Assembly (NCBI GenBank): GCA_947034895.1
Contig: OX344765.1
Span: 11,227,001 to 11,291,000, forward strand
DNA: 64,000 bases
From: Rhytidiadelphus loreus
Lineage: Eukaryota; Streptophyta; Bryopsida; Hypnales; Hylocomiaceae
Direction: 5' to 3'
Shown: positions 11,080-55,099 of the stretch, piece by piece
Numbering within the stretch: the first letter of the stretch is position 1
Layout of the letters: each line of letters begins with the position of its first letter
Position numbers and translations under genes: made by a program
The notes under the pieces: generated by a model
The model's input: the letters and a program-made list of their open reading frames with translations, nothing else
What the model was told of the DNA's origin: nothing
Databases searched by the model: none

Positions 11080-12879
11080 ATGGCGTCGTGGCCTCGGGGT
11101 TCTCTCCTTAGGGCAGTGACCGTGCTGCTGCTCTGCGGGTGGTGCGCGGCGAAGACAGTCACGTACGATTTCAACGTGAGTTGGGTCACCGGCAACCCCG
11201 ATGGCCACACGGAGAGGAAGATCGTGGGCGTAAACGGTCGGTGGCCGCTGCCCGTCATCGAGGTGGACAAGGGCGACCGGTTGGTGGTCAACGTGCACAA
11301 CGGGCTGGACCGAAATGCCGCCATCCATTTTCACGGCATGTACCAGAACGGAACCAATTACATGGACGGGGCGAACATGGTCACCCAGTGTCCAATTCCG
11401 CCGGGAGCGGACTTCACCTACAACTTCACGGTGGCGCAAAACGGGACGTACTGGTACCACTGCCACGCCGATTTCTGCTACCCGGATGGCTATCGCCAGG
11501 CCCTGCTCGTCCACGACACCAACGCGTATTTCGAGAATCAGTACGACGAGGAGATGGTCGTGACTTTAAGCGACTGGTACCACGAGCTGGTCGAGGACAT
11601 CCCTTTCTTGTCGCTGTACAACCCTACCGGTGCGGAGCCGTTTCCCGACGCCTTCCTGTTCAACGACACGCTGAACGTAAGTATTCCGGTCAAGCCGAAC
11701 ACGACATACTTGCTGAGGCTTCTCAACATTGGAGCATTTATGTCACAATACTTTTACATTGAAGACCACAAGTTCACCATCGTGGAGGTCGATGGCGTGT
11801 ACACAGAGCCGACCGAAGCGGATTTGCTCTACATTGCGCCTGCTCAGCGGTACGCGGTACTCCTCACGACTAAGAACTCGACAGAGCAGAATTATAAGAT
11901 TGTCACTGTGGCAGACTCGGAGCTTCTCGACGGGATTCCATCTCAATTGCAGCTGAATAACACCAATTGGTTGGAGTACAACGCAGCCGCACCACACGAC
12001 CAAGCAGAGATGACAGTCGACACGTCCGCGGATCTCGTTCCGTTCGATGACTTCTCGCTTGTCCCACACGACCGAATGCCGCTGCTGCCGGATCCGGACT
12101 ACGAGATCACCGTGGCCGTGAACATGCAAATCTTGAAGGATGGTAAGGGCTATGCTCTCCTGGACAACATCACCTACACGACGCCCAAAGTGCCTACTAT
12201 CTTTTCCGTCTTGTCGGCCGGCAATTTGTCCACCAATACCAAGGTCTACGGGGACTACACGCACTCGTTCGTCCTCAATCACAATGATGTTGTCCAGATC
12301 GTTCTCAACAACGACGACGGGGGCTCTCACCCTTTCCATCTGCACGGGCACAACTTCCAGGTCCTCGAGCGAGTTCCTTCCTACGGAGAGCACTTCTACG
12401 ACTACGCAGACAGCGACCCCCTGCCATTTGATCCCAGCAATCACACCGCTTTCCGTGCCGTCCCAATGAGAAGAGACGTCGTGGTGCTCCCACCAGGAGG
12501 TTACTACGTCATCCGCTTCGTAGCAGACAACCCTGGCGTGTGGTTTTTCCACTGCCACATTGACTGGCATTTGTCGCAAGGGCTTGGAATGCTCCTGATC
12601 GAAGCTCCCACAAAAATGCAAGAAATTTATCCCGCAACCATCCCCAAGGACCACTACGACGCATGCCGGGCCGCAGATGTGCCGTCCGTTGGCAACGCAG
12701 CTGGCAACACGATGGACTTCCTCAACCTGGCTGGCGAAAACAAGCAGAAGCCGTTTCTCCCGAGTGGTTTCACTCCCCGTGGTATTGTGGCTCTCGTCTT
12801 GTCATGCGTGAATGGTTTCCTAGGTGTGAGTTTCATCACCCTCTACGGCTTGACTGACCCTACCGTCCGCTCGAAGTGA
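11080..12879 (+). CDS. FET3: FET3-type plasma-membrane multicopper ferroxidase
   Basis: A single-exon 599-residue protein ending in TGA. A signal peptide covers about residues 1-24. Three cupredoxin domains carry all four copper-ligand blocks: HFHG at 83-86, HCH at 127-129, HPFHLHG at 417-423 and the HCHIDWH block at 491-497 with an axial Leu at 502. Acidic residues at E186, D284 and D413 match the ones that give yeast Fet3 its Fe2+ specificity and electron transfer. A single membrane helix lies at about 567-590, followed by a short cytoplasmic tail, as in fungal Fet3. There are many N-glycosylation sequons. The enzyme oxidises Fe2+ to Fe3+ with reduction of O2 and hands iron to FTR1, which is encoded divergently. 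It is intronless and GC-rich. It is clearly FET3-like rather than a plant laccase, ascorbate oxidase or hephaestin-type FOX1. Confidence 0.95.
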   Translation: MASWPRGSLLRAVTVLLLCGWCAAKTVTYDFNVSWVTGNPDGHTERKIVGVNGRWPLPVIEVDKGDRLVVNVHNGLDRNAAIHFHGMYQNGTNYMDGANMVTQCPIPPGADFTYNFTVAQNGTYWYHCHADFCYPDGYRQALLVHDTNAYFENQYDEEMVVTLSDWYHELVEDIPFLSLYNPTGAEPFPDAFLFNDTLNVSIPVKPNTTYLLRLLNIGAFMSQYFYIEDHKFTIVEVDGVYTEPTEADLLYIAPAQRYAVLLTTKNSTEQNYKIVTVADSELLDGIPSQLQLNNTNWLEYNAAAPHDQAEMTVDTSADLVPFDDFSLVPHDRMPLLPDPDYEITVAVNMQILKDGKGYALLDNITYTTPKVPTIFSVLSAGNLSTNTKVYGDYTHSFVLNHNDVVQIVLNNDDGGSHPFHLHGHNFQVLERVPSYGEHFYDYADSDPLPFDPSNHTAFRAVPMRRDVVVLPPGGYYVIRFVADNPGVWFFHCHIDWHLSQGLGMLLIEAPTKMQEIYPATIPKDHYDACRAADVPSVGNAAGNTMDFLNLAGENKQKPFLPSGFTPRGIVALVLSCVNGFLGVSFITLYGLTDPTVRSK

Positions 12880-24337: not shown

Positions 24338-27300
24338 TCACATATGAGAAGTTGAAACTCCCGGTCCTCTGTTGGCAAGCTTTTGAGATGGGTGGCTTGT
24401 TTCAATTTGAGATCCAGGTGAAAAATTCAATCCATCAAGGAAACTTAGTCGAGAATCTATATGACGAAAGGTAGTAAATATTTCAAGACAATCCACCTCT
24501 TTACCCATTTTACTCTTTCCTAAATGACTTCGACTCCGAACTTCATATCCATCTTTATTATTGGCATACAATGGACCAACATTTACTGGCAACTCAATCT
24601 CAGGAACAATCCAATTCATAGACCATGAAATATCTTCTTCAAGATCTAAACCTTGTGGTACCCACTTTATGCAAGCTTTTTTCATAAACACTTTCTTATT
24701 ATGTCGATGTTTTGGTAGTTTTCCAATTGTTACTTGTAATCCTCCAATATACATATGACAGCCTTTTGATTCACGTCTAAAGCCTAAAAGAACCGCATCT
24801 ATAGCCTTGTAGGTAGTTGACAATGGAACAGCCATAAATAGTGCTTCTTCTTTGCCCCCCTTCAAAAAATCCATGTGCAAATTTTCCATAGTAGCTTGCT
24901 CAGTTCCACTAACAAGTTCTATTATAGTTGGCCTAAACCGTGTCATGTTTCCAAGTGGAATAACTAATGGCCGATCGGCAAGTGCACCAATGACTGCTCT
25001 TTCTACTAAAGCTCCTCCTATCACCGGATGTCGCCTACCTTGAGATCCATATTCTCGTTTAATTGCATTTAAACAAGTTGCATCAAAAAACCTACTATTT
25101 TGATTATAAAGCTGAAGTAGCCGAGCAAGCTCAACTCCGACTAAACCACTAGATGGTTCTCCTATTCCATTTACAATGCGAAAATATTTTATATCCATGT
25201 CTCTTGGTGGTTTTGACATGGGTGAACCAAACAAATACTTGCAAACACCATCAACAAGTTTAGTTAATTGTCCAGCTTCTTTGGCAACTTCAAAGTGGTT
25301 TCCAAGGTCTTCCCTCATTTTTTCAACTGCAGGCTGAGTTTGCAATACTTTCAATGCTGATTCAAATGACACTTTTTCTCCTTTTGATGTCTGTTGAATG
25401 GTTTCTTTTAAAGCATCATACCAAGCTGAAAGGTAAACTGGAAGCCTTCCAGTTGCATCCAATAAAATTTGTAATTCCATAGCATCTAAAAGTTCTTTAG
25501 TTTTATCACCATCTGTAATAGAACTAACAAATTTCCATCGACCCCAACATTCTAATTCTTGATCCTAAAATACAAGAGCATCACAAAAGTACTTCAAATT
25601 CAAATATCCATATGAAAAGAATGAGTGCTTAGTATTCAATTATCTAATGAAACACATGACACAAAATCACTTACAATCACATATGTGCATGCACCTAGGC
25701 ACAAATGTACATTTGCAGAAAACAATATTATTCAAAACTAACCTCTAAGCCTTCATCCCACATGAATAGTTTGGCTGGAGGTTGGCCTGCATAGAATGTT
25801 TTTTCAACAAGTTCACAACTAGCTGAAGCTACACGCACCATACAATGATGACAACACATACGAAAGAGAATATTTTTAAGTGCAATATTTTCTTTGTCTT
25901 GAACTTCAATAGATTGCCATTGATCAAATATCCATAACAATTGTGCTTCGGTTGCTTCACAAAATGTAGCTAGATGCTCCAATGTTGTACAATTTCCTAA
26001 TTTTTTCAAGCTAACATCATCATCTCCATAAGAAACAAACAATGCATCTCGTAGAATTAAGAATGCCCTATCTTGTAGTAACAAGCCACAATCCATTATT
26101 GCCACAACTCTTTTTCTTGTCTCTCCAAGTGATGAATTGCAAGAAAATTCCTCTGTAAAATCTGAAACTGCTGCTGCTAGAATGTGACTTTTACCGGTTC
26201 CTACTGGACCTACAACAAGTATGTTCCCTATTATTTCATTGTAGTGTCCTGGTGACCGAACTTGCTCATAAGATGTGCAATATGAACGTTCTCTCTCACT
26301 AACTAGTTGCGATATTAATAATCGTAACTTATGGTAATGTAATCGTCCCATATAAGCAAAACGACCATCATTGGTAGCAAATCTATTATCTGTAGATGCC
26401 CATTTTGCAACATCGGCAACTGGGAGATTGAGTTCCATCCACTCTGGCTTTGATAATGGATCTGCAGATTTCATATGATCTCGCAAACTAGCCATGGACG
26501 AAATCATACTTTGAGGAAGTAGTTTTGCCTTCTTAATGACTGCAAAAAAGTCAAATTAAAATAAAATATTCAGACATATTTTCAAGTTAAGTAATCAATT
26601 AAAAACTCAAATATAAATTTCATGAATTACATTCTAAGCATAGAAATTTAATTTAGATTTTTCATACTAGAAAACCATTTAAGTACACATATTGATTTTT
26701 TAAATAAAAAATATTGATTTATTTAATTATTGAAAAATGATCATTTCAAACTAGATTTCAAATTACTTTTTTAATAAATAGTTATTGATTTTTTTCATTA
26801 AATGTAATTTTAAAATAGAACATTATAATAATGTAAAAATTCTTTTAACTCATATTGTTGATATAGAATAAAACAATAAAACTAGTTGACATATTGCTAA
26901 AATGAAATATGACACATTTAAAACATTCAATATTCTTTTTTTCTTATATTTCTTACTTATAGTTAAATTTCATCTTGTGTAGAAATTTCAAATAATTACA
27001 TATTAAATTATATATATAAATAATGAAAAAATTCCTAAGCTAATTTTTGAATGTATCTATTTCTAACATCTAATTCTATTCTATAAAGTTCATAGATTCT
27101 TCTAATTTTGTTGTTTTCAAAAATTCTCCATCTATGTTGATTTTTTTCAAATAATTTGTTGATTTTGATCATCTTATTATTTTATATAAAAAATTATTAC
27201 TATAAAATAAAATCTAATCATCATTTTTTTAAATTTCAAAACTCTATGATGTTCATGCAGAATAAAATCCTATAATTTATCTTGTATATGAATTTTTCTA

Positions 27301-36440: not shown

Positions 36441-39400
36441 CAGGGCTTTCTTTTTTGGCATTGAGAGGCCAGATTGCACCCGCCTGGGAACCCTGGCGAA
36501 CAGGGTATGTAAACTGGGTACTTGAAAATGGAAAAAAGTCGCCACGTTGGCGTCGATTGCTGCCCGGGTTGGGCCAGGTCGGCGGCAGAATGGCCCCGCG
36601 ATTGGCAAGCTGTCGCCACTCTTTCTTCTCCACTGCGCCAGGACTCCACAATGAATGTTGCATTCTCGCCACTCCCTGCAATTGCTTCCCACTCCTTGCT
36701 CCGGACTCTTTCATAATGTCGCCACAGATTTTGGATGCGGCGTTCACTTCCAAATTCCGTTCGCCACGGATCCGTTGGCCTGGCCTCTTCATTTCGCCAC
36801 TCCACTTCTTCAATGCAGGAGTGTTTTGCCAGTTCGCTGCGGGAGTGGAGGTACTCATTTTGCCAGGCTTCCACGACCTCTACGCTTCCAAGTTGTAGAC
36901 CACCACTCTGATTTTAATGTGTTTCGTTAATTGTCGAAGTTAGTGGTAGTAGTTGGTGGAAATGGAGCTTTTGCGCCACCATGCAACATCTGTCCCTTGC
37001 ATGCACATGAAATTGCTAAGAATTCTGTATTTTGTTCATGATTTTCTCTTGTATTTCTGTCGATTGCACTGCGGTGTTTGTAAGCTGTTTATTGCTACCA
37101 TATTGTATGCGTTTTGTGCTGCGTGGAGGGTGAATTGCCAGGATGGAGCTAGGTCAGGAAGATCGCGGAGAGAACGCAGTTGCAAGAGCGGTGCATGCTG
37201 CAGAGGTCGCTCGCGTGGCCAAAAAAAGGCAGACAAAGCTGCGAAGGAAGCCTTGGAGGTGGCGCGAAGAGAGCTCAAGCGGAAGGAAAAAATTGTGGAC
37301 TTGCGAAAGACTGAAGCGCGGAAGAGGACGGTGAATTCTTACTTTCAATCTTCGCGGGGCTCGGGAGGTGGCCAACCACTGGCGTTTGTCTTGGATGGCT
37401 CAATGCTGGATGTTCCTGGGGCGGAGCCTGCTTCTGCGGAAGAGTACCCAAGTGACGACAATGATGTAGGCCGGCCAATTCTTCGTGGACACAGTTCTTC
37501 GCTATCCATTGACACTGCAAGAACCCCTGGTTCTTCGTCAGGTTCTGGTAATACTGTGGTCTTAAGCGCCAAGTCACCATTGATTCATATATTAGAGGAT
37601 TCCGAGGAACTAAACAATGCCAGGTTTGTGGAGGTACCGGTGGACTCTGAGGGATCCAACGAGGACTCCGACTTTGAGTCTCCTCCGTCCAAACGAGGTG
37701 GCAGTAGTCGCCGGAAATCCAGCAGTTCTCGATCAGTGGCTCAAACGCGATACGATAGGCATCGCAAGTTCTAGACCATGTGGGCCGCGAAATTGCCATG
37801 GGCGGAGGGGATCATGGCCACGGATGGAATTCTGCATATGGTAAAATGCAAAGTCTGTATTGCCATTGATCGGAAGCCCTGTGTGATGGCGCCGAAGTCT
37901 GATACATTATTCAAACACGATGGAAAATGGACCGCCAAAAAAGACTTGCCGCAGTACAAGGTCAAGGTGGGAGAGCAGTACGTAGCTATTCATTGCAAAC
38001 ACCGCAAGAATATGAAATTGTACGCAACGAAGCCTCCAACTTCGGTCCTGGAGCAAGTGAATCACTGCACCACTCTTGAGGCCAGAAAGAAACGGGTTCA
38101 ATTCGCCACTTTGTTTCAATTGCTTGCAGATGGTCGTCCAATGCTTGAGTTTGAATCTTGTGCATCCTTGTACCAATTGCTTGTTGTGCCAGACCTTCCT
38201 TCCGTCCATTGGTGCTGCAGCTCCGGTTGGATCATGGCAGGGTACATGTATGAGCAAGTCCTTGATGAGATGAAACGCTTGATTGGTAATGCGAGATACT
38301 TGGCAGTCACGGTTGATGAAGTAACAACTGTGGACAATTCCAGCTTCTTGTCTGTTCATGCGTACATTGTACAGGATTAGGTGCGGATTCCTTTGTTGAT
38401 ATCCCTGCAACGTGTGGAATGCACGCCAAACGCAGAGAACTTGACTGAGCTCATTGTCGGGGCAGTCCTTGTTGGTGGGGGCTTGGATTCGAAGTCTTTG
38501 GCCCACAAATTGATAAGTTTCGGGGCAGATGGAGCATCGACACTGCAGGGGAATCGATCTGGTGTCACTGCGCAAATAAAAGAGAAACATGTACCGTTTC
38601 TAGTTGGCGTTCATTGTGTGGCCCACCGATGCAACCTTGCATTCAAAGCCCTGTCTAATTTGGGCATTTTTTCAGACATCGAGAAACTTCTCTCTGTGAC
38701 TTACGGGTACTTCTGCAAAAGTCCAAAAAGGTTCTCTAAGTTCAGACAACTGGCTAAGTTGACGCAAACGAAGGGATTGAAGATGCTTAAGAATGTGCAG
38801 ACCCGCTGGGTCAGTTTGATTGAGCCCCTTCGACGCTTGTTGTCCGAATATCGCACCTTGATATACAAGATGACTGCCGATTTGAATGAGAACAACAAAG
38901 CAGAGGTATGTTTTTTGGACTGCCGATTTTCCATTGCATTGCTACACTTCTCTTCATTTCAAAGTAGTTTGTGAAGAATATGTAGTTGCTATATTTGTTG
39001 TATACCATGCTTGAATGGCGTTGGGTTTACTTTCTTACATGCGTGAATCCACTGATGTTTGTGTATGTGCGATGTGCAGGCTTGTCTTACTACAGCTCCT
39101 TCTTGCCCCTTACCAGATGGTAGGGATGTGTGCGCTCCTCCCACTGTTAGAAGCAATTGACATACTTGTCATGCTTGCCCAGAAGAGGGACATGTATATC
39201 TGTGACTTTGTCGCTACTGTGAAGGTGTGCCAAGCCTCACTTTACCGCATGTATGAGGATAAAGGGACCTCATTTTGTAGTGACGAGTTCTGGAGCTTTA
39301 ACAATCTACTAGAGTGCAGCCACGAGCAGATCCATATTAAATGGATGACCGACTTGAATGACAATTCTGTAGTCTTGACCTTCATCTGCCACGGCGAGCA

Positions 39401-40005
39401 GATACATGCTGAACATCGGGGTGCTCTAGTCAATCGTGAAGTATGGACAAATTTGGTGGGCAAAGTTAAGGCCGAATGCACAAGTAAGTGCTTTCAAACT
39501 TCTGTTCTTTTCTATTCTTTGTGAACTTCGGTTTTTCATTTCAACTATTGGCCATATGCAGTCGCTATTGGTTCTTCAAGTTACATTTGCCGTAACAAGT
39601 TCTTTTGTTTCCATTTACTTTGTGAACTCGAGTTAAGTACATGTTGAATTGTAGAAATTAAAAAACCAACAGTGCCCTGGAGTTGTACAACAGTTTACTT
39701 GCAGTATGAGTTTTAACTGGTTGTGTTGGTGCATGCAGGTGCCGCAAAAGTGCTCGTGGCAGAACTTGATGCACGTTTCCCAAATCAGAGCGTCATGAAC
39801 GCTTTCGGCATTTTCTACCCTCAGTATTGGTGTCAAATGAATGCCGAGGAAGGTTTTGACAATCACTTGCACACGCTTATGGATGCATATGGTCACGACC
39901 GTATTCTCAGTTAGGGTGACAAGAAAGTATTCTTGAAACCTCTCATCGACCGGGATGCTATCATGTCCCAAAGAGCTCTATTCAAAACTTGCATGAAATC
40001 TAATT

Positions 40006-40015
40006 GTCGTGCAGC
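40006..40015. repeat. MULE target-site duplication, left copy
   Basis: GTCGTGCAGC, identical to 53509-53518. It belongs to the hAT transposase reading frame. A duplication of 9-11 bp is characteristic of Mutator-like elements. Confidence 0.92.
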
Positions 40016-40574
40016 CAGGGTTGCTATTTTGTGAGCCTGTGAGCGTGAGCGTGTGAGTGTGTGAGCATGCGAGCATACAATTTTTTCTGTTGGAAATTGA
40101 TGAAGTACCTATGACCGTGGAAATTGGAATGAGGACTACACCTCACAATATATGATGGGAAAAAATAAATTGTGATTTAAATTTTCTGATTGTAGAGTAA
40201 CTGAATCCATTATCAGTGAAATTCATTGCAAATTTTATTGACACTATGTTAGGGTATTTATAAAGAAAAAGATAATTAGTCTACAAATCACAATTGCACT
40301 GAAATCAGGCTATTTATTTTTGGGGTTGATGATGTGAATTTCATCCATAAAAATAAATTGTTCATGATGTTTTTTTACATACTGAAATATAGCTTGTAGA
40401 ATGCAGTTTTTGATTCAACAAAAGATTTGGATCAGGGTTTAGGGTATGAAGTTGTACCTCTAACTATTTGTTCTTGATCAGGATTATGTAGATAATTCTA
40501 ATTGAAGTACACAAAACAACGTACAATAAACAATAAAATAAAAATCAACGCCTGAAAACAAACAAAAAATAGAG

Positions 40575-43500
40575 TCATGTAGATGACGAAGACATAGAAT
40601 GAGAGTTGTCACTACTCTCAGTGGATGAGATCTCCTGCTCTGATTCTAGAGCTGTCTCATCTATAAATTGCAGAATTGTAGGGTCTAAAGACTTAGACTT
40701 TCTCCGTCTACAAAAATCCTCTTGACAGGCCAATGTCCCAGCGACAGCCTCTGCATATGATGGCAACAAAAAGGGCTTCTCCGGGCTTGGAAAAAAAGAT
40801 GGTAGAGTGAAAAATGGCCGGAGAGCCACCGAATTGTAAGTCATGCTGCAAATGAAAAAATGATAATTAGGAATGGCAAGAAGTTCACGTTCACAATGAA
40901 AGAAGCTTGGAAGAAAAACTTGAAGTGAAAATAATGAATAGTAGACATCTATCTCTAGGAAATTTTGGAAAAAAGCAAGCATGGGTAGACTTACTTACTG
41001 AAACGAGATTTCTTCACGATGTGGGGAACTTCAATTTCCTGACCTTCATCATCGTCAGAATCCTGTACAACGGCAACGACTATAGGTGGAACATCTTTCG
41101 GTGCGCGAATCATTGGGGCCAAAATTGCCTCAAAAATGGCTTTGTCTTCTTCAAGTGCAATGATGTGCCTGCTCGAAATCCTGCAAGCGTGGATGGAAGC
41201 CCCTAATCCACAAAACAAAACAAATCCAATTACTACAAAACTCAATGAGAATTGAAGAAAAAATTTGGATCAACAAAAACAATAGAAGACATTGAATGCT
41301 CATGCACATACCGGTCGCAGCAGTGCAATCAATAACAACATCATTGGCAAACGTTGATGCTTCTATCAACATCTGCATGAATCGGGGATCCTTTTCTCTT
41401 GCACCCCTCCAAGGCTTGAATTTGCTATCCATGGTCAATGTCTCTTTCTTCGTGAAATTCTGAATAACATCATCAACTGCCACATCTACTCCTAGCTCCC
41501 TCAACTTTGGGCATGGCTGGAATTGAAACTTGGAAGGACCAATACCATCCAAGTTCCTGACCAGCAACATGACACGGAAGAATTGAGTCTACAAGAGCGA
41601 AGAGATACACGGTGAATTAGTCCAAATTGAATGATCAAATATGAACTATTAGTTGCCATAACAAATCCATAGAAGTAGAAATGTAATCAATTAAGAGAAT
41701 CAAAATAGAAGTAAACAAAAAATACACCACCTATAGTACATTATGTCATATTCAAGAATGATAGCATTTTTGTCAAGAGAAGACAAATCCATGAATAAAA
41801 TAGGGAAAAGTGAAGGATGATCATACCGTACATCCAGTAGAGATTGGTGAGGCCAAATGAAGCCAATTCGTTCCCCACCAATCCTTCATCTTCTTAAACG
41901 AATATGTTGCAGCGTACTTCAAAATCGTAGCCTTGACGACAGGACTCCGAGAATGAATAATGAGTAACGCACCGTCATCGTGCAAATGACCATCAGCAAA
42001 CTCGAACACCGCCTCTAGCCCAGAAGGGTGGACCATGTTCCATTTCGGAACAGTATGTGCAGGTGCCGATAGACCTGGGACAGGCAAACCCTCGGGCATG
42101 TCCGCAATGACGAGGTCCACTCGAGGTTTATCACTCCGAACACCACGGAAGAAACGCTCCTTCTCTCCTTTGTGCTGCAAAATGATTTAATCAATTAGCA
42201 AACAGACCAATAATGTTAAAGAGCAAAAACCAAAGTAAAAAATGGAAGAAAGTGAAAATGCGAACCTTGTCAACAAAACTGACAATGTCATGGTATACTT
42301 GGGGTAGAGGATCGGCCAAGACATCAGTAAGAGAGTAATTTAGAACCAGCTCGGCAATCGATATCTCCGAATCCTGAAGGTACTCTACAGCGGATGGACC
42401 ATGTTGCATCTTGTCATTGCTAAGTGAAGCATACTCAGAATCACGCTTAGTGCCACGTGAATTGGAGCGTTGATGTTGGGAGCCCTCGTCTTTTGTGGAT
42501 GAACGTAAGACATCCTCTTCGGCATTCTTCCCTTTCCCCTTTCCCTTCTCCGCCGCTAGTACTTGCTCCGACTCAGTAAGCTTCTTTGTCTTCTTCGTGG
42601 CTCTCTCCTTTGCCTTGTCCACCGCCTCGGAGTTCTTGAGTGCAATCTTCTTGTCGACGTCGTCTCTCCTCTTGATTGCCTTTGCCTTGGCATCGTCATC
42701 AAGGCCGGCAAACTCGTCAACATCTTGAACCACAGCATCAGTATTGATCGACCGCTTCAAATGGTCCTCAGGCAACGGCGTGAATTCCGGCGGGCAATCC
42801 AAATACCACGCACCGGTTTTCAAATGCAAACTCGTCCACCATCTCAATTGCGACGCCGAGAACATGCAATGCTCTGATGAAACATCCAACCATGTTCCCA
42901 AAAACGCAGGTAGATCGCGCTTTGCAATTGCCCCCTTAGGCAACAGTTCATACTTGAAATACCTGTACAGACCAAACTCTTCAGAATACAGAAAATGATT
43001 AAACATCGACAGTAAACAAACTTAATGAAGCATATCACAATGGCATTAAGATATCAAATTCTCACCGGTAGATCACCCGTTTGACAACTAGATCAGAGCC
43101 CTTGTGTTTCTTGAAGTCATCTGACTTTCTGAAGACATCGTGTCTCCGAAATTGGGGCAAGAAAGCGTGGTCCCACACTCGTATTCTCCAGTCCTCAACA
43201 TACTCTGGAAAAGTCTCGGGCTCTTGGGGAGAGTCCATAGCTAACTTCAACTGGTCTTTCTTCACAATGTTATCAAACATTTCAGCTCCCGTGTCTTGTA
43301 TCTGCAAGGCCATTAAAAGTTGTCATGTATAGTAATAGATTACATCGCAATCCAAATTGCACTAACCATCCAATGTCACCGTGGACTAGATCGCAACCCG
43401 AAAACGAGATGACTAAAACATGAATGAAATGAACTAAAAACACTTACCCCTGCATACCAGCACGCCTTCGATAGGAAAGACTTCAGTTCTATCTCTCCAG

Positions 43501-46500
43501 CTGGCTTCAGTGGGAACCTTCTTGCCTCCCTCGTTTGAACTGATGAGTTCCACCATGTAAGCCACTTAACCTTATGCTCCTTGCTCACATTGCATGTTGC
43601 AATCAACTGCAACTTCTCCAGAGTCATTTCGGGAGTGATGTTGGAGCTCCAATGACGCTCGATCTGAAAGCATAAATCACTTGAAGCTGAATAAACTAAA
43701 TGAAACGAGAAGAAGACAAAAACGAGAGGTCTAAAGAAATGTCATCATACCTCCTGGAGCCACTCATTTCCCAGATTGGGATTGGCCACAGCAGTCAGCT
43801 TTCCCAACTTCTGCACTAACCTTGCTGTCTTCTCCTTTGTACCTAACCTCATGGCAGCCAACACACCCGCCTCTGACTGCAGATCCTCAGGTGTCTCTTC
43901 CCTATACAACCTAACTGCTATGTCGGCAGCCGCAGCTATCTCATACTGCAAAACAACATGGAAGTGAGCAAAACATTGGAAGGATTAATGCTTCTACACA
44001 ACTCAAACATACAAAGAATACGCACACGTTCTGTGAGAATCGTTACCCGATAGATGAATGAAGTGAACACCTCAACGGACATCGAGTACCAACTTTTTCG
44101 GAGATTCTGGTGGCACTGAGTCATCTCGGACTCACTCAAATGCTCTGAGAACTTCTCAAGTGGAAGCATGCCATATTTCTGAACACGATAAAGCGTATGA
44201 ACAAGACTGGTCTTAATGAACGAACTTTCCGTATGCCTGAAACAGAAAACAAAAACGTCAAAATCATCTTAAATGATTACATTGTAAACAAAAAATAAAA
44301 AAATGCCTGAATGGGAGCACTTACTTATTGATGTCGTGCATAGCATGCATGACATCACCAATCCTGCCCTTCGTGTCAAGAATGATCGAGTCCACTGATA
44401 TATGCCAATCCTTCTCATGGTCGTGGTGTTTGCTGATGTAAGAGGTCCACGCCAGAAGTCTATGGTTTCCATCACAAACGAAGAACTTAGACCCCTTGAA
44501 GTTCTGCAAACCTGGTGTGGCGTCCAGAATCGCATTGAAGATGTCATTCTCTTCATTCCACATTGGCCCCCAAGCCTCTCTTTCCGCAGCAGACACCATC
44601 TCAGTCTCCCCCTGCTCATTAGTGAGTGACACATAAAAAACATTTGATCCATCTCTATACCCATGAACGAACTCCTACTCCAATTTCGTGAGATCACTCT
44701 GAAGTGCGGGTCTAACCATGGGCATCTGGACAAGGCGACATAACGGAATCCGCAGCCGAGATATGGAAGTAGGTTTCAGACGTAAGTCGGCGATGGAGGC
44801 CACAGAATTCACCTTCTGTGACCTCCTGTAGGCATCCTCGGATTTGTATTCCTCGTGAGCCTCCCCCATGTCTTGGTCAATATTCACGATCACGAGGTCA
44901 TTGACAGCAGGTGTGATACTCTCCATTGAAGAATCCAAAACTCGAACCGGTCCACCTACTTGCACCTGAAACATAACGGACAACGAAAAAGATCATTACA
45001 TAGACAAATGCATTGTTGGAGGATAACTTTCGCGGATTAGACCCTGGGTGCGTAGCCCTTCCCCTCGGCGCCGATGGCGTGGCCCTGGGGGTGCTCTCTG
45101 ATCAGCATTCATAAAACGAAAAAAAAATCACAAAGAGAATGTCGGGGACAAGCCTCCTCGGATCAGACCCACGGTGGGCAGCCCTTCCCCTCGGCGCCGA
45201 TGGCGTGGCCCTCGGGGGTGCTCTCAGATCAGCATTCATAAAACGAAAAAAAAATCACAAAGAGAATGTCGGGGACAAGCCTCCTCGGATCAGGCCCATG
45301 GTGTGCAGTCCTTCCCCTCGGCGCCGCTGGCCAGGCCCTGGGGGTTGCTCTCTGATCAGTATTCATGAAACAAAAAACAAAATAACAGAGAAACGTACCT
45401 TGGCCCTTTCCTCTTTGGATCAGACCCACGGTGGGCAGCCTTTCCCCTCGGCGCCGATGGCGTGGCCCTCAGGGGTGCTCTCAGATCAGCATTCATAAAA
45501 CGAAAAAAAAATCACAAAGAGAATGTCGGGGACAAGCCTCCGCGGATCAGGCCCACGGTGTGCAGCCCTTCCCCTCGGCGTCGATGGCGTGGCCCTCGGG
45601 GGTGCTCTCAGATTAGCATTCATAAAACGAAAAAAAATCACGAAGAGAGCGTCGGGGACAAGCCTCCTCGGATCAGGCCCACGGTGGGCAGCCCTTTCCC
45701 TCGGCGCCGATGGCGTGGCCCTCGGGGGTGCTCTCAGATCAGCATTCATAAAACGAAAAAAAAATCACAAAGAGAATGTCGGGGACAAGCCTCCGCGGAT
45801 CAGGCCCTGGGTGTGCAGCCCTTCCCCTCGGCGCCGCTGGCCAGGCCCTGGGGGGTGCTCTCTAATCAGTATTCATGAAACAAAAAACAAAATAACGGAG
45901 AAACGTACTTTGGTCCTTTCCTCTTTGGATCAGACCCACGGTGGGCAGCCTTTCCCCTCGGCGCCGATGGCGTGGCCCTCGGGGGTGCTCTCAGATCAGC
46001 ATTCATAAAACGAAAAAAAAATCACAAAGAGAATGTCGGGGACAAGCCTCCGCGGATCAGGCCCTGGGTGTGCAGCCCTTCCCCTCGGCGCCGCTGGCCA
46101 GGCCCTGGGGGGTGCTCTCTAATCAGTATTCATGAAACAAAAAACAAAATAACGGAGAAACGTACCTTGGTCCTTTCTTCTTTGGATCAGACCCACGGTG
46201 GGCAGCCTTTCCCCTCGGCGCCGATGGCGTGGCCCTCGGGGGTGCTCTCAGATCAGCATTCATAAAACGAAAAGAAAATCACGAAAAGAGCGTCGGGGAC
46301 AAGCCTCCTCGGATCAGGCCCACGGTGGGCAGCCCTTTCCCTCGGCGCCGATGGCGTGGCCCTCGGGGGTGCTCTCAAATCAGCATTCATAAAATGAAAA
46401 AAAAATCACGAAGAGAATGTCGGGGACAAGCCTCCGCGGATCAGGCCCTGGGTGTGCAGCCCTTCCCCTCGGCGCCGCTGGCCAGGCCCTGGGGGGTGCT

Positions 46501-47793
46501 CTCTAATCAGTATTCATGAAACAAAAAACAAAATAACGGAGAAACGTACCTTGGTCCTTTCTTCTTTGGATCAGACCCACGGTGGGCAGCCTTTCCCCTC
46601 GGCGCCGATGGCGTGGCCCTCAGGGGTGTTCTCAGATCAGCATTCATAAAACGAAAAAGAAATCACAAAGAGAATGTCGGGGACAAGCCTCCGCGGATCA
46701 GGCCCACGGTGTGCAGCCCTTCCCCTCGGCGCCGATGGCGTGGCCCTCAGGGGTGCTCTCTGATCAGTATTCATGAAACAAAAAACAAAATAACGGAGAA
46801 ACGTACCTTGGCCCTCTCTTCTTCGGATCAGACCCACGGTGGGCAGCCTTTCCCCTCGGCGCCGATGGCGTGGCCCTCAGGGGTGCTCTCAGATCAGCAT
46901 TCATAAAACGAAAAAAAAATAACAAAGAGAGCGTCGGGGACAAGCCTCCTCGGATCAGACCTACGGTGGGCAGCCCTTTCCCTTGGCGCCGCTGGCGTGG
47001 CCCTCGGGGGTGCTCTCAGAGCAGCATTCATAAAACCAAAAAAAAATCACGAAGAACGTGTCGGGGAACAAACCTCCTCGGATCAGACCCTGGGTGCGCA
47101 GCCCTTCTCCTCGGCGCCGATGGCGTGGCCATTGGAGGTTGCCCTGATCAGCATTCATAAATGAATAAGTTGCGAAGAAACGTACTTGGGGACAAGCCTC
47201 CGCGGATCAGACCCTTGGTGGGCAGCCCTTCCCCTCGTCGCCGATGGCATGGCCCTTGAGGGGGTGTTGTAATGAGGAACGTGACCGGTGATTAAACCCT
47301 ATGTGGGCCGTGCCTACCTTCTCGGATGTAACCCTCTATGGGATTTACTTCCTCTCGGCACCGATGGCATGGTCGGGGGTTTGGTCGGGGGTAGCCTTAC
47401 CCTAAAACAAACTTCGAGAATCTCTATCGGAGACTTACGTTTGCGGGACAAACCCCCAAAACGATCAAGCAATCCAGTTTATTCTGTATTCATGTTTCTG
47501 CCCTCGTCTAGGATTCCTAGTGATGGTGGAATGACGATTACCTCAGAGCCCGCAGTTGGCGGTTCATCCGTTGTGTTCACTTGATTTGGCCTCTCCTCCG
47601 CAGAGCCCGAAGTTGGTGGTGCAACCATCGTGATCACCTGATGCGGCCCTTCTTCCTCAGAGCCCGTACTTGGCCGTGCATCTGTCGTATTCACCTGAGG
47701 CGGCCCTTCTTCCTCATCGTTGCTATTCATATCGTGATCTTCACTTCTCTGAGCCTCCGCGACCGCGCTCCTAGTCGTTCGTCTTCTCGCCAT
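40575..47793 (-). CDS. ParB-like plus beta-class DNA amino-methyltransferase-like cargo protein
   Basis: Eleven exons join in frame: 47793-47542, 44965-44325, 44236-44047, 43945-43751, 43663-43448, 43301-43066, 42962-42266, 42174-41827, 41588-41312, 41202-40995 and 40845-40575. They give 1176 codons plus the stop. Exon 1 starts MARRRTTRS and has acidic 18-residue repeats. Exon 2 is ParB-like, with IPLCRLVQMPMVRPALQSDL and then FFVCDGNHRLLAW (DGNHR about 248-252). Exon 7 has a Lys-rich linker. Exon 8 carries DLVIADMPEG (about 830-839), in the place of the DPPY motif IV. Exons 9-10 carry DVVIDCTAATG|ASIHACRISSRHIIALEED, motif I of N6_N4 methyltransferases. The order IV then I is the beta class. 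ParB-methyltransferase fusions are common in phages and bacteria. One in-frame TAG at 44675-44677 (KLE*EFVHGY) interrupts this copy. The DMPE sequence makes activity doubtful. Confidence 0.68.
45030..47390. repeat. 129-bp tandem array (about 19 units) in intron 1 of the cargo gene
   Basis: Units of 128-130 bp recur from about 45030 to 47390. Each contains CCCCTCGGCGCCGATGGCGT (or a close variant), then a 'gtgctctcagatcagcattc' type stretch and an A-rich tract. Two unit types alternate irregularly: one with 'cacaaagagaatgtcgggga' and one with 'acaaaataacggagaaacgt'. This suggests a higher-order repeat. The array lies between exon 1 and exon 2 of the minus-strand gene. Open frames across it arise because 129 is 43 codons, and they should not be annotated as proteins. 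Confidence 0.9.
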
Positions 47794-48086
47794 TTCAGTC
47801 TTCGTGTTGACAAGAAATACGTCAGTGATCCGTGATTAAGGATTCGGTCCTTCAATGAAGGATGACTACGAACCCTAACCTCTTAGGAACTTGCACAAGG
47901 ATTGAACCAATGCTCAATGTCTTAGATTCTACAAAGCTTACTGTCCGACCATTAGTCTTCGTGTTTAGGAGAAGTGATCTATCAAAATTTCATACCTAAT
48001 GTGGTGGTGAGATTATTTGTAGAACTCATTTACTTTGAGGATAACTACCTGATTTACGAAAGTACGTACTACCACATCCAAATACA

Positions 48087-48455
48087 TCAGTAGGTATAAT
48101 AACGGTATCGCCAATACACAATATTGCGAAGAGGTAGCAAATGTGAAGGGAGAGTAAATTCACTTACGACATTATGCAATTGCCCGTGGCCAATGCTGTT
48201 CCTCTGCGGCCCTTCTTCTAGGCTCGTTACAATATGTTGACTCTCAACAATGAGATCTCCATGGAAGTCGTATTCTTGCATTTGAGCAGTTGCAGTTTCT
48301 TCGCACGACTCGGACTCACACAGTAATGCAACCTTCTTACTTCTATTCCTTGACCTGTGCAACTCCCTACTAGAAGAAAATAAAAGTTTTCTTCTCTTCC
48401 TCCTTTTCCTATATGTATGCACAATTCCATCGCGTGTGCAATCTGGCGTAAGCAT
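48087..48455 (-). CDS. Small basic ORF or exon between the two MULE genes
   Basis: A 122-codon frame beginning MLTPDCTRDGIVHTYRKRRK, with a strongly basic stretch resembling a nuclear localisation signal and a glutamate-rich second part. A consensus donor (GTC|GTAAGTG) lies inside it at about 48166, so it may be the first exon of a spliced gene ending there. I found no acceptor that would join it to the ParB-methyltransferase gene, whose own ATG at 47793 has a good context. No family is recognised. Confidence 0.35.
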   Translation of the reverse strand: MLTPDCTRDGIVHTYRKRRKRRKLLFSSSRELHRSRNRSKKVALLCESESCEETATAQMQEYDFHGDLIVESQHIVTSLEEGPQRNSIGHGQLHNVVSEFTLPSHLLPLRNIVYWRYRYYTY

Positions 48456-49212
48456 ATGACTAATAGTATATACAGTCGACCATATTGTTGATTATTAGTG
48501 GGAAGTGAGGTATTATATTGAAGTAGAACAATGTATGCATTCTACAGAATTGTTACCAATGATGCTATCATCACTACATCTGCTAAGCAGGATTCAGTAC
48601 TTTTAATATTATAATTCGTCTCAGGCGTACATGATTTGAACCTACTAGTCATTTGAATTACAATAATTGATATTATTAAATACCACAAGATTGTCTAATC
48701 CGATCTTTCAAATTGCACATTACTAGAATAGAGTACTCCATTTTCACTAGCGTGTGCCTATAATTTTGTTGGTGACTGCTGACACTTTATGTTTAGACTC
48801 CATAGTCGGCGCTACTTAATTTCTAGAAGGAACGATCTCCTTTACGTAATAGCAGGAACATGGTTACAGAGAAGTTCAGTAATTACTTCATGCTCATAAG
48901 CCTCATATGGTGCCAGAAACAAACTACTAACCTTAATAAAGTTAATTTCATTTGGCTTTGGTGTTAATTTTATTCAATGGATAGGTGAGCGCATTTCCTT
49001 AATTACAACCGCAACCGTCTGTATCGTCTGCGCTTCCAAGTACATTGTATACGGATTCTATTTCATTGATGGATATTGATTGCAGATACTGACATTGAAA
49101 ATTATTTATTATCAAATCTGTTTGGGAGAGGCTCTAGATTCAACCTTTCTTGAGCGCTGCAGAAGTTTAGGTCATATTGTCATTGTCGATGTTGCTCTTT
49201 GATTTCTGAAAG

Positions 49213-52200
49213 ATGGCCTCCCTCAGAGCGGATGGCCACGAGGTTCCTCTCATACTCCCTCTAGGAGATGGAGATTTTGTGGCGGTGTCTGCTCACCTTC
49301 TTCATGTACGTTTTGGATTTGCCCTGTCTAGTATCTATGTTGAAGAGGAAGTACTGTCTGAGTCTGGCATTTTGAGAGAGTCGATCTATATGCAGAGAAT
49401 GGTAATTGATGACAATCATGTCTGGCATCTTCGTCGAGGGCGCTATCGAGCTTATGGTTTACCGTCTGTGATGAGTACAAACTCCACTCAAATCTTACCT
49501 CGGCATTCCGAGCATTCTACAGTGGATATGCCTCCTTCCCATCGTGACAACCATAACACTTTAGAACGTGAGCATGTTAGGAATGTTGTCAATCTTCTTC
49601 CGTTTGTCACCGTCAAGAAGGAACCAAATGACCATGTCATAGATCTCTCGAGTGAGTCCAAGGGAGAGTCTCCAAACCAACCAGCACTTCCTAGTAGAGT
49701 CTCTGAGGGGGCCCACATGACACCATCTAGTTTAAATTTAACGCCTTCTAGTAGTCCTGCTCTGTCCATGCACTTCCGTCCACCAACATATCCTAGTTGT
49801 GCATCTGCGATTAGTATTGTTGGTTGCCTACGCAAGCTAGCGGCGATGCATGGTTCTCGGAACGAAGTAGCTTCGATAGACTATGATGCACTCATCCATC
49901 ATAAGGTGCAGTACCTTCCTACAAATTTTAACGGAGATGTAGTTTTTGAGTTGCCTTCTCTTCCAATTTCGATTTCGTCGTCCTCTGCTGGGAAGTTACA
50001 GGGCATGGATAAACGATACGATGGTCACGCTTGGTGTAGGACAATGACGTCTAACATCAACAATCACGACGGCCTAAAGTTCAGAAAATCTTCCTGTGCC
50101 GGCCATCTTATCTGTAAGAATTCAGAATGCGACTACTTGAAGCGTTCTTCTCATCCGAACGAGACTGAGTGGTGTGGTTTTACTCCTGGTCCATTTTGTA
50201 TTGGTGCATTTCCTCCAAAGGATTCTACTCTCCTCTGTAAGATATGCAAATGTCCGCCTCATTGCATCAATGTCTGTCATGCTCGAATCTATTACGTTTT
50301 TGGAGATTCTACAAGCATGACTAGAGCTTGCATTCATTTGGGGAATCACGTGCATCCTGTAGCTTCAGGAACATGTAGAGAGTCCTTAGGTGCTATAGCC
50401 GGACTCATCGCTGGTGAGGTTTCGAAAACCCCTAGTGCCATTAACTCTACCATTGCCCTAGCAGCTAGCAAGAAATTTCTTGATAACCACTTGATACACA
50501 ACGGTGAAGGTCCAAAGCAGATGTTGCGGGGAGATTCGTTAGATGATGTCATGGACAAGTTCCAAATACTAAGTTCTCCTAATATCCGAAATGTTATTTC
50601 ATCTTTCCGTTCAAGTGGCAAAAGTGGGATAATAGATAGTATCATGAATATGAAAAGAAATTTGCGGTTTGAGTACATCCATGACAGTGTGTTTCCTGGT
50701 CAAGGCAAGGAGAAGGTTTATTTGTTTAAAATGCTAGTAGAAGGACCAGGGAGTGGTGTGGACCTTGTGAATCGGATGCAACCGGGCGGAGATCTGGAGA
50801 ACGCATGGCTCATGTTTGACCATGTCAAGCGAGTTAAAGACTGGACAACCATGGCCTGCCACGTTTATGATACAGGTTGCAGGAAAGTCATGACAATTGC
50901 TGTGTGTGATATGCAATCTGAGGACACTGTGGTTCAATGCATCATGTGGAGATCTCTGAACGGAGTCATGAGACGCAATGGCATTGAGAATCCAAACTTT
51001 AAAGGCTTTATGGCAGACAGTGCACAAGCGAATTGGAATGCCGTTCGAATTGTCTACGGATCAGGAGATCCTAAAATAGAGATGGTGAACCGGGAGAGAA
51101 CATGTCTTTTACATTGGAGTACCTCTTTGCATCGCCATACACAGAAGCTCATCAAGCCGGACTTGCAACACCAACATACTCGACTTTGTAAGCAATACAA
51201 AGACTCCAAATCTATGGACGAAGCTGAGATGCGTTACCTAGCGATACGATCTTGGTGGCTTTCATCTGGAGCAGCCTCGGAAGATGCTATGAGGGAATTG
51301 GAGTTGTGGCTTGCATTTTGGCACTTCAGATATCGTCAATGGGGCGGCTTTATGCAAATGGTATTTCTTCTACCTAATTATTTTCATTCTGCAATCTTAT
51401 GGATCCACTTTTATTTTTCTGAAATCAAATTCGGAACAAATATTTCTGCCTTGTTTGGAGATATTCATCACTCTAGGGTATCGGGGATTCTCCCCTCGGC
51501 GCCGAGGGGAGCCTTTGCCGCATAGTGGTTAGATCAAAGTTTAACTGTGTCATTGTAAATGAGAACTATCAGTGGTGATACTTAATTTTTCTTTTACTTT
51601 GTCTTTGATATCATTGTTTCAGGACTTAAATGTTGAGGAGATGGCGGATATGCCGTCATGCAACTTATCCGAAACAGTCCATAATAGGTGGTTGTAGCAG
51701 TTAGGTAATCGGGGTAATGATTTGTTTGCCGCCACTTCTGATGACTGCATTCGAGCTTTCATGCAAATGACCAATTATCGAGCTTTTCTTAATGGCAACA
51801 TATCAAGGTCAGGGCCATCCAAAGAGGAGTTAAAGTTACGAGGCGCTAGACGTAGCGGTGATCCAAAGAAGATTGCGGAGGCACTCAATGAACTTCCTGG
51901 AGGGGCCGGTGTTGGATCACGTATTCCGCATTTGGAAGGCGAAGAAGTATTTGGTAGCAGTAAGCGCAAGCTTGACCTTCCGATTGGGTCAGATGGTGAC
52001 TCCCATCATCCAGACAAGGTAAACTTCTCTCAGCCTCGAGTACAGACACGATCGACACGTTCACCCACGGTTGCCTCTAATGAAGCAGACACACTGGTTG
52101 ATTCTGCCCATGTACCACATGTGACAACTGCAATGGAGAGTGAATGTGATACTTCACAGTGGCATATTGCAAGAATTTCGCACAAGTCCAGTTGCAAGTG

Positions 52201-53029
52201 TCACGCGCAACAAAGAAGTTCAAACATCCGTTGTGTTGCCAAAATTGCAAAGGGATCTAGTGGTACACCAGCTCCGACCTACCGTGGTAGAAAAAAACAA
52301 TATGGCGGAAACAAGGAGATCATGACCGACTTCTGGTTTTGCCCAGATGATATTGAACGATGTGTACAAGGATCTAAACGTAGTTGGGTAATTGATTGGC
52401 CCCAAGTCCCGGATGTGTGGCCTGTACTAACAGGCACTAATTTGACCCGCCAAGAGACGTTGCTGCTACAGGAGGCTGGTTTCCAGCTACAACAACGGCC
52501 AGCTATGTCCCCTCGACGTTTATTCACCATGTCCAATGTCTTCCAGGCCATCTACTATGATCACCCTAGTCCTTTACATGCAGACGCAAATCCAACTACT
52601 CGAAGGAGCAAGGCTATTCGACGTATTGCAAATGCTCCTACAACAGAGCACCGCAATAAATGGGAGAGCGCTGGTAATGTCAAGGGAACGATTTTGGGAG
52701 TAACCTTGCTCCCCTTCCCTGGACTTGGAGCCATAATCTCCCTTCAATCCGGACTTGAGCCAAAGCAGAAGCTTTATCGCATTACACTTGGCATGTATCC
52801 AGAGTGCACTTGTCCCGATTTTGTCGACATGGCTGTTTCAGCAATTGGTGGACGCCAACAGTATGTTCATTGCAAACATCTTTATTACTTACTTCGCTAC
52901 TTCAGCAAAATGAATCCGACAGAGGATAACTTCATACATTCTCCAAGCTTCAGCTTCAATGAAGTGAAGCTCCTTCTCACAAAGGCCGGTATCATCAAAG
53001 TTTCGGAGGATAGTCTTCAACATGTTTAG
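49213..53029 (+). CDS. MULE transposase with WRKY-GCM1-type zinc finger and SWIM domain
   Basis: Two exons, 49213-51360 and 51623-53029 (GTATTT...TTTCAG, phase 0), give 1185 codons including the stop. Residues 270-385 form a Cys/His-rich DNA-binding region ending CIHLGNHVHP, resembling WRKY-GCM1 fingers of MULE transposases. The DDE core shows MTIAVCDMQSE (D566), GFMADSAQANW (D602) and the MULE-specific CxxH (CLLHW, 631-634), with a glutamate-rich helix near 690-697. A SWIM zinc finger CTCPDF...HCKH is at about 1111-1135. The protein should bind the terminal repeats and cut and paste the element. One in-frame TAG at 51695-51697 (WL*QLGN, where Gln is expected) interrupts an otherwise intact gene. 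The intron contains a 22-bp perfect palindrome centred on GGCGCC, related to the 129-bp array. Confidence 0.88.
51487..51508. repeat. 22-bp perfect palindrome in the transposase intron
   Basis: CTCCCCTCGGC followed by its exact reverse complement GCCGAGGGGAG. The left half and centre match the CCCCTCGGCGCCGA core of the 129-bp array in the neighbouring gene's intron. Confidence 0.8.
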
Positions 53030-53508
53030 AAGTCCAACAATACCTAAGTGATCAGTGTTAATGATTGAAGGACTGTAGACTATTCATAGATGTCTAGCTT
53101 CAAAAGTACCATTTTGTATTTGGACAAATACAGTAATTCCTTGAAGTATTCAATACAACCTATTTTCAATCAGAATTTGCATTTTCCTATAGGTCATTTG
53201 TTTGCCTTTCACAATATGTACTTCTATTACTGTAACCAATGATTAAAATTAAAAAATTTATACAAATTGTACATAACCACGGTAATAGATCCACGGTAAG
53301 AAGTCATGGGTGCTAAGTCCACGGTCATAGGTCCACGGTCAGTGTGTACTAAAATTTACTCGAAATAGTAAGTTTTATAATAATTATTAAAAAAATTCTA
53401 TTTTTTGAAATATTACTCAGTTTTTTTAATTTCAGAACTCCGCGCTCACATACTTCCTGCTCAACGCTCGCAGGCTCGCGCTCACACGCTCACAATCTAG
53501 CACCGTTG

Positions 53509-53518
53509 GTCGTGCAGC
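53509..53518. repeat. MULE target-site duplication, right copy
   Basis: GTCGTGCAGC, identical to 40006-40015. The hAT transposase frame resumes directly after it. Confidence 0.92.
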
Positions 53519-55099
53519 AATGCTCCCACTGTATGACGTGAATCCGCTAACCAAAGTCTGGAGGGTCCTTGACAGCAACAACAGTTTAACTCAGAATTTT
53601 GGTGAGTTTATAAAGCTAGCCGAGATGGCCGTGGTTCACATCTTGGGGTCAGTTGAAGACAAGTGTTTGTTCTCTAGTGTCGGATTTCTGAAATCAAAAC
53701 TCCGAAACAATTTGGAGGAGCATATTCAGGTGGTCATTGGCATGTTCTCCCAACAAATTTTCACACTTCAAAGCTTCCCTTATCAGAAGGTATTTGACGA
53801 ATGGAACTTTGTCTCCGGAGGGTGTGGGAGATATTTGGCAGGTATTTAGGTTCTAGTGCTGCAGTTGGGGCAACAGTTACGTAGACAGGTCATGCGAGGT
53901 ACTTGGCAGATAGGTTCTTGCAGATAGGTGCTTGTAGTGTCTTCAAGCTGGTGAGCTATATGTTTCCTTCTTGCTGGTATGTGTTTCTCACCTGTTGACT
54001 ATTGTTGACAGCATTGTTCAACGTGCGTATTTCCATTGTGCATGGTCGTCTCTGATGCTTCCACTTTTGTCAATGTCTGTTTTCCTATCTCTCATGCTGA
54101 AATTAGTATGTCTTTGTTTGCATCGACACATTGGCATTTGTGATTGAATGCCTAAACCGTTGAGGTAACATTTGGTTTTCTATGTGAGTTACATCTACTG
54201 CGAGTACCAGAGCTTTCAGTCATGTGTTAGTTTTCATGGTTGGTGTTCTGGTCTGTTTCTTACTTTGGCATCGGAGGGTTTTTTTGGGGAGGCGCAAGTC
54301 AATGTTTGCCTGGAGAAATCTTGGCCGAAGGTGAGGTATGTACTCCATCATGACAAGGTAAGGTATTCTGACTCCCACCCTAGACCAATTGATATGCCAC
54401 TATGTGTGTTGCGTTCTTCTTTCAACATTCGTGTGGCCTGATTTGCTAGTCCACCATAAGAATATGGTGTTCCAGTGAGTAATTCAATGAGTATTGTGAA
54501 TGTATATTGTAGTTGGATTGCACATATACTTTCTCTATATGAACTTGGAAGTCGAATGGATGTTTAAGTGCCCGAAAACAAGAAGGCCTACTGTTTAGAT
54601 ATTTTTTGTCTTGAATCTAACATCTCAGCGCCAATAAAAAAAAATTATATTTTTACGCCAAAGCACCAAGAAGTTTTACTGACTTTGGCATCGGAGTGGT
54701 TTGGGGGTGGGTGCAGGTGTAGTTCTACACTTTCCAATTGCTTTCACTGATCGTTTCTTGAGTTGGCTAAAATTTGTTTTTGAAATGTCGATGCTCGCCA
54801 GATCGCACTGGAATTTAAAATCAGCTTTTCTTCTATTTGCCCAACAAAACTACAATGCACAGCTATATTTCGCCTCTCCCCTTGGAAAACACTGATCATG
54901 GTTGCCAAAAATACGTTGCCAGAATTGGTAAGTTCGCCGGGAAAAAAAATTGATTTTTCGCCACTTATTGCATCGACAAAAGCCCCAAAGTCGCCAGTAA
55001 AAGACTGCCAAGTGGCCACCTCAGTCGCCACTTGAACTTCAGAAAGACAAAGAATATCGCCTTTTCATTCAACACCAAAATTTGAAAACAAAAGCCCTG

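Follow-up and report, generated by a model that had tools for sequence, protein, structure and literature searches.

In the VANDAL Mutator-like elements (MULEs) of Arabidopsis, VANC proteins bind short motifs and cause a loss of methylation there, the targets differing between families; these motifs have accumulated as tandem repeats within the same elements, in introns as well as upstream regions; that of VANC21, YAGTATTAY, is non-palindromic (PMC5735166). VANDALs are described as MULEs without terminal inverted repeats (TIRs). Retrotransposons with cytosine methyltransferases are found in dinoflagellates and charophytes (PMC5890265), and fusions of a ParB-CTPase-fold domain with an N6_N4 methyltransferase have been described in phages (PMC12704722). 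Here we describe a transposon of the moss Rhytidiadelphus loreus, located in a 64,000-nucleotide stretch (hereafter the window; assembly GCA_947034895.1, contig OX344765.1, positions 11,227,001 to 11,291,000, forward strand), which carries, divergent from its transposase gene, a gene for a predicted ParB-methyltransferase protein. It is a predicted MULE-type element with an accessory, probably self-addressing gene built from parts not found in such elements in the searched literature.

Among the titles and abstracts listed from that literature, with subscription journals mostly outside it, none reported a DNA transposon encoding a ParB-fold protein or a ParB-methyltransferase fusion. In word searches, the words plant, moss and transpos were absent from the main text of a ParB survey; neither a survey of MULEs nor a review on gene capture contained methyltransferase, ParB or moss.

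The gene pair, its copies and selection

The features of the element are given below, with positions in the window, strand and basis of the assignment.

40006..40015, no strand: target-site duplication, left copy, GTCGTGCAGC (direct reading, same as 53509-53518)
40016..40066, +: left TIR, CAGGGTTGCTATTTTGTGAGC... (inverted-repeat call; matching ends in other copies)
40572..47793, -: ParB-methyltransferase gene, 11 exons, 1176 codons (splice sites, translation, homologue P0001, open copies elsewhere in the genome)
47793-47542, 44965-44325, 44236-44047, 43945-43751, 43663-43448, 43301-43066, 42962-42266, 42174-41827, 41588-41312, 41202-40995 and 40845-40572, -: exons of this gene
40995..42174, -: predicted circularly permuted N6/N4 DNA-methyltransferase-like domain, exons 8-10 (motif IV ADMPEG before motif I DCTAATG; PF01555, PHROG)
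44047..44965, -: predicted ParB-CTPase-fold domain (GNHR motif) and following helices, exons 2-3 (AlphaFold2 (AF2) model of homologue P0060)
45033..47256, no strand: intron-1 minisatellite with a 127-bp unit, 17.4 units in all; the core of each unit resembles the palindrome CCCTCGGCGCCGAGGG
47541..47716, -: 57-bp repeat, 3.1 copies, in exon 1 (giving a tandem peptide repeat)
49213..53029, +: transposase gene with two exons, 49213-51360 and 51623-53029 (by eye: N part zinc-finger-like, core of DDE type with CxxH, C end SWIM-like)
51491..51510, no strand: single perfect palindrome, TCCCCTCGGCGCCGAGGGGA, in the transposase intron
53466..53508, -: right TIR (inverted-repeat call; matching ends in other copies)
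53509..53518, no strand: target-site duplication, right copy, GTCGTGCAGC (direct reading)

The divergent 11-exon gene of 1176 codons proposed in the initial annotation stood as to its borders (GT-AG at all 11 exons) and codon count; codon 181 is an in-frame TAG (44675-44677, exons 2-3 region), on which that annotation was silent. The transposase gene likewise contains an in-frame TAG, at 51695-51697, and since each of the two genes has one such stop, the window copy is probably non-functional. An alternative code with TAG read as glutamine was considered and rejected: other copies are open without it, and C>T or G>A accounts for most private changes. Of the 158 private differences among 12 copies (L030 excluded), 126 fell into these two classes, the trace that methylated cytosines would be expected to leave.

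The 407-Mb assembly (489 contigs, window included) was searched with both genes as DNA queries. The transposase query gave at least 43 matches, of which at least 27 spanned the full length with ≥95% identity (window included; 40 of 909 candidates scored), and the gene query at least 41 (38 of 399 candidates scored). Many copies are 99-100% identical to one another, which points to recent activity. For the linkage count the 41 gene matches were taken as 34 places, seven being omitted because complementary query ranges marked each as the second part of a split gene (two of the seven sit ~40 and 60 kb from their partners), and the 43 transposase matches as 41 places, with two 119-base pieces omitted. 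A divergent transposase was found within 100 kb of 32 of the 34 gene places, within 25 kb of 30 and within 10 kb of 26 (window included).

Intactness was assessed in 16 of 20 fetched upstream stretches; L013, L019, L023 and L028 were omitted, the gene lying mostly or wholly outside their 9,990 bases. The gene is open in five of the 16 (L014, L015, L016, L021 and L027), with consensus splice sites where checked; the gene of L014 is completed by L051, and there the splice check covered all but the exon-11 acceptor. The transposase is open in four of the seven other copies for which it was fetched, over a stretch ending about one codon before the gene end. Within these limits, L007/L014 represents one element with both genes open.

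The pair is also kept in diverged families. In the family at C4:55.43 Mb (L034 and L032, with L046 as the transposase) almost the whole length of the gene can be recognised, at 45-81% protein identity per block, with introns read inside some of the blocks and with stops of the copy's own. In the family at C4:7.79 Mb (L047 and L048) gene blocks are 51-69% and transposase blocks 53-82% identical, again as a divergent pair, and a third relative, L033, retains remnants of exon 1 and of the ParB part. The initial annotation had considered that related elements might lack the gene; the 32 linked places and the two diverged families that keep the pair speak for its regular presence.

Comparison of the gene with its C4:55.43 Mb relative over 1081 codons gave proportions of synonymous and nonsynonymous differences (pS and pN) of 0.706 and 0.192, and a dN/dS of 0.10 (bootstrap 0.06-0.14; 292 of 300 rounds retained for the whole gene, undefined values being dropped). 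The methyltransferase part alone gave 0.11 and the C-terminal tail 0.43; for the ParB and linker parts synonymous saturation left dN/dS undefined. The transposase of the same pair gave 0.13, and all these ratios are approximate because dS is near saturation. Among young copies (synonymous divergence <2.5%) dN/dS was 0.51-1.45, and among older ones 0.34-0.49. As judged from these substitution ratios, the ParB-methyltransferase gene is under purifying selection, a pattern which argues that it is needed by the element lineage and decays after insertion like the transposase. The element has two constitutive divergent genes and is multi-copy and apparently recently active, the window holding one broken copy.

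MULEs capture pieces of host genes, a habit well known enough that a host- or phage-derived gene picked up by one transposon copy had to be considered. Such a chance passenger is ruled out by the linkage at 32 of 34 places, the pair in diverged families, the dN/dS of 0.10 and the 532 related exon-2 protein clusters, and we reject this explanation, giving it a negligible probability.

Element ends, transposase and protein domains

The element spans exactly 40016-53508, between the two copies of the 10-bp direct duplication GTCGTGCAGC. Its TIRs, a MULE character, are imperfect (arms 40038-40066 and 53466-53494, 76% complementary), with ends conserved among copies. Of 11 other copies, nine have a duplication of 9-11 bp at the corresponding ends, within the 8-11 bp of MULEs; the right end of the remaining two, L025 and L031, was not located within 601 bases of each. 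The earlier delimitation of the element by a 10-bp target duplication and TIRs was thus borne out to the base. When the flanks are joined around one copy of the duplication, a reading frame continues over the insertion site. The older open reading frame (ORF) hit by the insertion (36953-40005 and 53519-53849) is hAT-transposase-like by eye and holds a stop of its own ~30 codons upstream of the insertion site.

The transposase was originally read as a WRKY-GCM1/DDE/CxxH/SWIM protein. Comparable motifs were again recognised by eye, and those of catalytic type are conserved; the reading was not matched in Pfam, which returned no family for either window transposase ORF. An 18-row alignment of transposase exon 1 (17 relatives and the window) retrieved two weak, unrelated Pfam families only, the MULE, SWIM and FAR1 families being absent; this alignment spans the other half of the protein, and the SWIM half was profile-searched from the window sequence alone. 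MULE membership is predicted from the length of the duplication, the ends of the element and the motifs assigned by eye. A PDB sequence search with alignment A6 gave two chance-level rows, and viral contigs scanned with queries A1, P0002 and A6 gave no match. Genome contigs scanned with A6 gave a single 4.1-kb contig, L003 (CADCWO010000080.1), with a transposase relative only. This contig is filed under an uncultured cyanobacterial metagenome-assembled genome, AVDCRST_MAG81; its transposase relative has an apparent intron, and it is probably eukaryotic contamination.

The accessory protein has a full-length homologue in Ceratodon purpureus, M758_1G295400 (P0001; 31% identity over 90% of the query), annotated as hypothetical and compared here at the protein level. 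With the Ceratodon protein as query, at least 88 matches were obtained in the genome of the window (40 of 3723 candidates scored). Several additional lineages are among them, as are exon-2 frames that are open, and the ParB-type gene family appears to be very large in this genome. Pfam searches of single ORFs and exons gave no family in nine of ten pieces and one weak match in the tenth. An alignment of the window exons taken separately (A4; 13-25% identity for most exons) was discarded as apparently misaligned.

The ParB fold, first named from the letters of the DNA, is supported by structure comparison: the AF2 model of the close homologue P0060 matched ParB, Noc, KorB and sulfiredoxin (Srx) in Foldseek and VIA-align comparisons, and it has a ParB/Srx fold with a nucleotide-pocket Arg motif. 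Pfam gave no ParB match for the protein of the gene. With alignment A3, a PDB sequence search gave no match, genome contigs gave none, and viral contigs yielded two phage loci, which share a short DGNHR-like match with it. Among the viral structures of BFVD, the ParB part is best matched by a protein from Cafeteria roenbergensis virus that is uncharacterised, so that an origin from a giant virus is no less open than one from a phage.

For the methyltransferase part, the window protein scored 19.2 bits against PF01555 (N6_N4_Mtase), below the cut-off of 26.7 bits, and the Ceratodon protein exceeded it with 30.4 bits. Weak but consistent matches to phage and bacterial adenine methyltransferases, including PHROG methyltransferase families, agree with this assignment, and the BFVD matches include a mycobacteriophage DNA methylase. 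In NCBIfam, three methyltransferase families scored far below their cut-offs for P0001, and three other queries returned nothing. In the AF2 model of full-length P0001 (mean predicted local distance difference test score (pLDDT) 49) the methyltransferase part, at ~30, was not interpretable. Taken together, the fold comparison on a homologue, the Ceratodon Pfam score and the phage and bacterial matches support the domain order given in the initial annotation, ParB-like, linker and N6/N4 methyltransferase-like.

Palindrome arrays and candidate functions

The palindrome core repeated in intron 1 is 16 bp long. It was counted, at ≤1 mismatch to TCGGCGCCGA, in the interval separating exon 2 from the transposase, with 60 dinucleotide shuffles of each interval as control. 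The window contained 18 cores (11 exact), L048 12 (10 exact), L032 11 (6 exact) and L033 four (none exact); shuffled intervals averaged ≤0.08 cores and never had more than one. Outside the element, the window has one core in 50,487 bases. Among the 20 fetched stretches the number of cores per copy ranged from 0 to 63, and the copy without cores, L023, has no exon 1 in its 9,990 bases, its gene being 14 kb away. A short motif accumulated in the non-coding parts of the element, as in VANDAL/VANC-type systems, is therefore found in four families, window included. Array units measure 127, 106 and 117 bp among families, with the sequence around the core largely unlike, and in L032 the 11 cores are spread across 2.3 kb with mostly unlike flanks, Tandem Repeats Finder (TRF) finding no tandem array there. 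The transposase intron of L046 and L048, from the diverged families, carries a palindrome with one core mismatch in each, at the intron where the window has its single perfect copy. Whether or not L032 represents an old array in which the core was retained as the remainder drifted, the pattern suggests selection on the motif itself.

Bacterial ParB proteins recognise short palindromes and clamp DNA. In the explanation that we consider best, the moss protein would recognise the palindromes, both those repeated in intron 1 and the one inside the transposase intron, and would load or clamp at them in the way of ParB at parS. The control region that lies between the divergent genes would be kept active against host silencing by cytosine methylation, as by VANC in VANDAL elements; alternatively, the protein may regulate both divergent genes from their shared region. 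The methyltransferase domain would write a mark other than 5-methylcytosine (5mC) at the palindromes, or act as an S-adenosylmethionine (SAM)-binding DNA-recognition module. On the present analysis, binding of the palindromes by this protein is slightly favoured, and an anti-silencing or transcription-control role has about an even chance, as has the explanation as a whole, a clamp at palindromes with VANC-like control of the element. The palindrome arrays, on which the initial annotation was silent, make a VANC-like regulatory role the most specific functional option. A wider scenario seems rather unlikely, namely that a transposon lineage domesticated a phage-type ParB-methyltransferase and evolved parS-like intron arrays, that a nucleotide-switched clamp insulates or marks DNA (non-5mC) and defeats silencing, and that it co-evolved with its sites across families.

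Several observations weigh against palindrome clamping with VANC-like control. Nine of the 41 transposase places lack a gene place within 100 kb by DNA query; of these, two were inspected and both carry a diverged or decayed gene. The core spacings in L032 are mostly 146-171 bp, and its cores may for that reason be the remains of an old tandem array. The palindrome is absent from two more distant lineages, L049 and L050, in the 2.5 kb analysed of each; at the corresponding place L050 has a GC-rich 86-bp array (L050:137-805) that shares only the half CCCCTCGGC with the palindrome. The CpG ratio of the window array (cores masked) is 0.63, compared to 0.71-0.75 in exons, so that CpG depletion is no weaker there and gives no sign of the array being protected from methylation; for TpG+CpA, too, the array has the lower ratio (0.98, compared to 1.24 in exons), and the CpG test is therefore not clean either way. 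A DNA-binding motif in the helical middle part is not among the features established by the sequence analysis. Finally, motif IV is non-canonical: Ceratodon has DTPF, and the families of the window, of L034 and of L047 have DMPE.

The last point bears also on an active DNA methyltransferase, delivered by its ParB part to write N6-methyladenine (6mA) or N4-methylcytosine (4mC) on the element (e.g. at the GC-rich palindrome), and thereby marking it, protecting it or blocking host enzymes. The strong constraint on the methyltransferase domain (dN/dS ~0.11), the motif order and motif I region, which match phage and bacterial adenine methyltransferases, and the existence of phage ParB-N6_N4 fusions (PMC12704722) would suit such an enzyme, which we nevertheless regard as unlikely, motif IV lacking its second proline in the four lineages examined and, in the three families on the window side, which conserve DMPE, its aromatic residue as well. 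Catalysis may be altered or lost, and ordinary methylation is not to be assumed with such a motif. The catalytic motif IV of N6/N4 methyltransferases is (D/N/S)PP(Y/F/W), and true methyltransferase activity appears doubtful from the sequence.

The positions of the palindromes bear on two further explanations. An accessory role in transposition, in which the ParB-like domain nicks or bridges the ends, or the protein assembles a complex around architectural palindromes, would be in line with a long-term constraint similar to that of the transposase and with the ParB-methylase Bce_0392, cited as a non-specific nicking enzyme (PMC5512222); with the window palindromes placed in two introns and not at the termini, it is quite improbable. 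Still less probable is a segregation-type clamp, spreading from the palindrome array and tethering or clustering element copies in the nucleus. The ParB-CTPase fold is nearest to solved ParB proteins and the 16-bp palindromes are arrayed beside the gene, but we know of no need for partition of a chromosomal element, and no ParA-type partner was noticed in the ORF list of the element, in which no search aimed at ParA was made.

Neighbouring features and comparison with described systems

Elsewhere in the window, a fragment of an FTR1-type iron permease (PF03239; 8451-9074, -) lies near an intron-poor ORF for a FET3-type multicopper ferroxidase (11029-12879, +), whose best PDB match is the iron-transport oxidase FET3. 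The FTR1/FET3 pairing is usual in fungi, and acquisition of the pair by horizontal transfer is possible. At 24338-26555 (-) there are two adjacent ORFs, RHS/Crinkler-like by eye, one of them with a P-loop (AAA-like, weak Pfam).

With canonical ParB, Noc and KorB and their parS sites, the system described here shares the CTPase fold, and in both cases palindromic, repeated sites lie near the gene. The canonical ParB motif is GERR, and the window protein has GNHR in its place.

The VANC family is not known to be related to the ParB-methyltransferase protein. The layout of the moss element is nevertheless that of a VANDAL: a second gene, a motif array in that gene's own intron between the divergent genes, and a different array in a distant lineage. 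The likeness to VANDAL21/Hiun extends to motif repeats in the introns of a MULE with an extra gene, and to peptide repeats in its protein (PMC5735166). The differences are that the window element has TIRs and a palindromic motif, whereas VANDALs are non-TIR elements and their VANC21 motif is not a palindrome, and that VANC causes a loss of methylation in VANDALs, whereas for the moss protein an anti-silencing effect is a prediction from sequence.

The phage fusions with PF01555 unite the same two domain types in one protein (PMC12704722); unlike them, the gene described here is eukaryotic, spliced and part of a DNA transposon, and its protein has a linker, a long helical middle part and an altered motif IV. 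The retrotransposons with DNMT genes are likewise transposable elements carrying a DNA-methyltransferase gene (PMC5890265), but theirs are C5-cytosine DNMTs, whereas here an N6/N4 beta-type domain is joined to ParB in an element with TIRs. For study, the moss system offers a protein lineage that is open, candidate sites defined to 16 bp, and diverged families of which one has a different array. If the proposed reading is true, a ParB-type clamp and a beta-class methyltransferase fold enter eukaryotic chromatin biology, and if the palindromes are the sites of the protein, this would be a second, independently invented sequence-specific system, beside that of VANC, by which a plant-type transposon addresses its own DNA.

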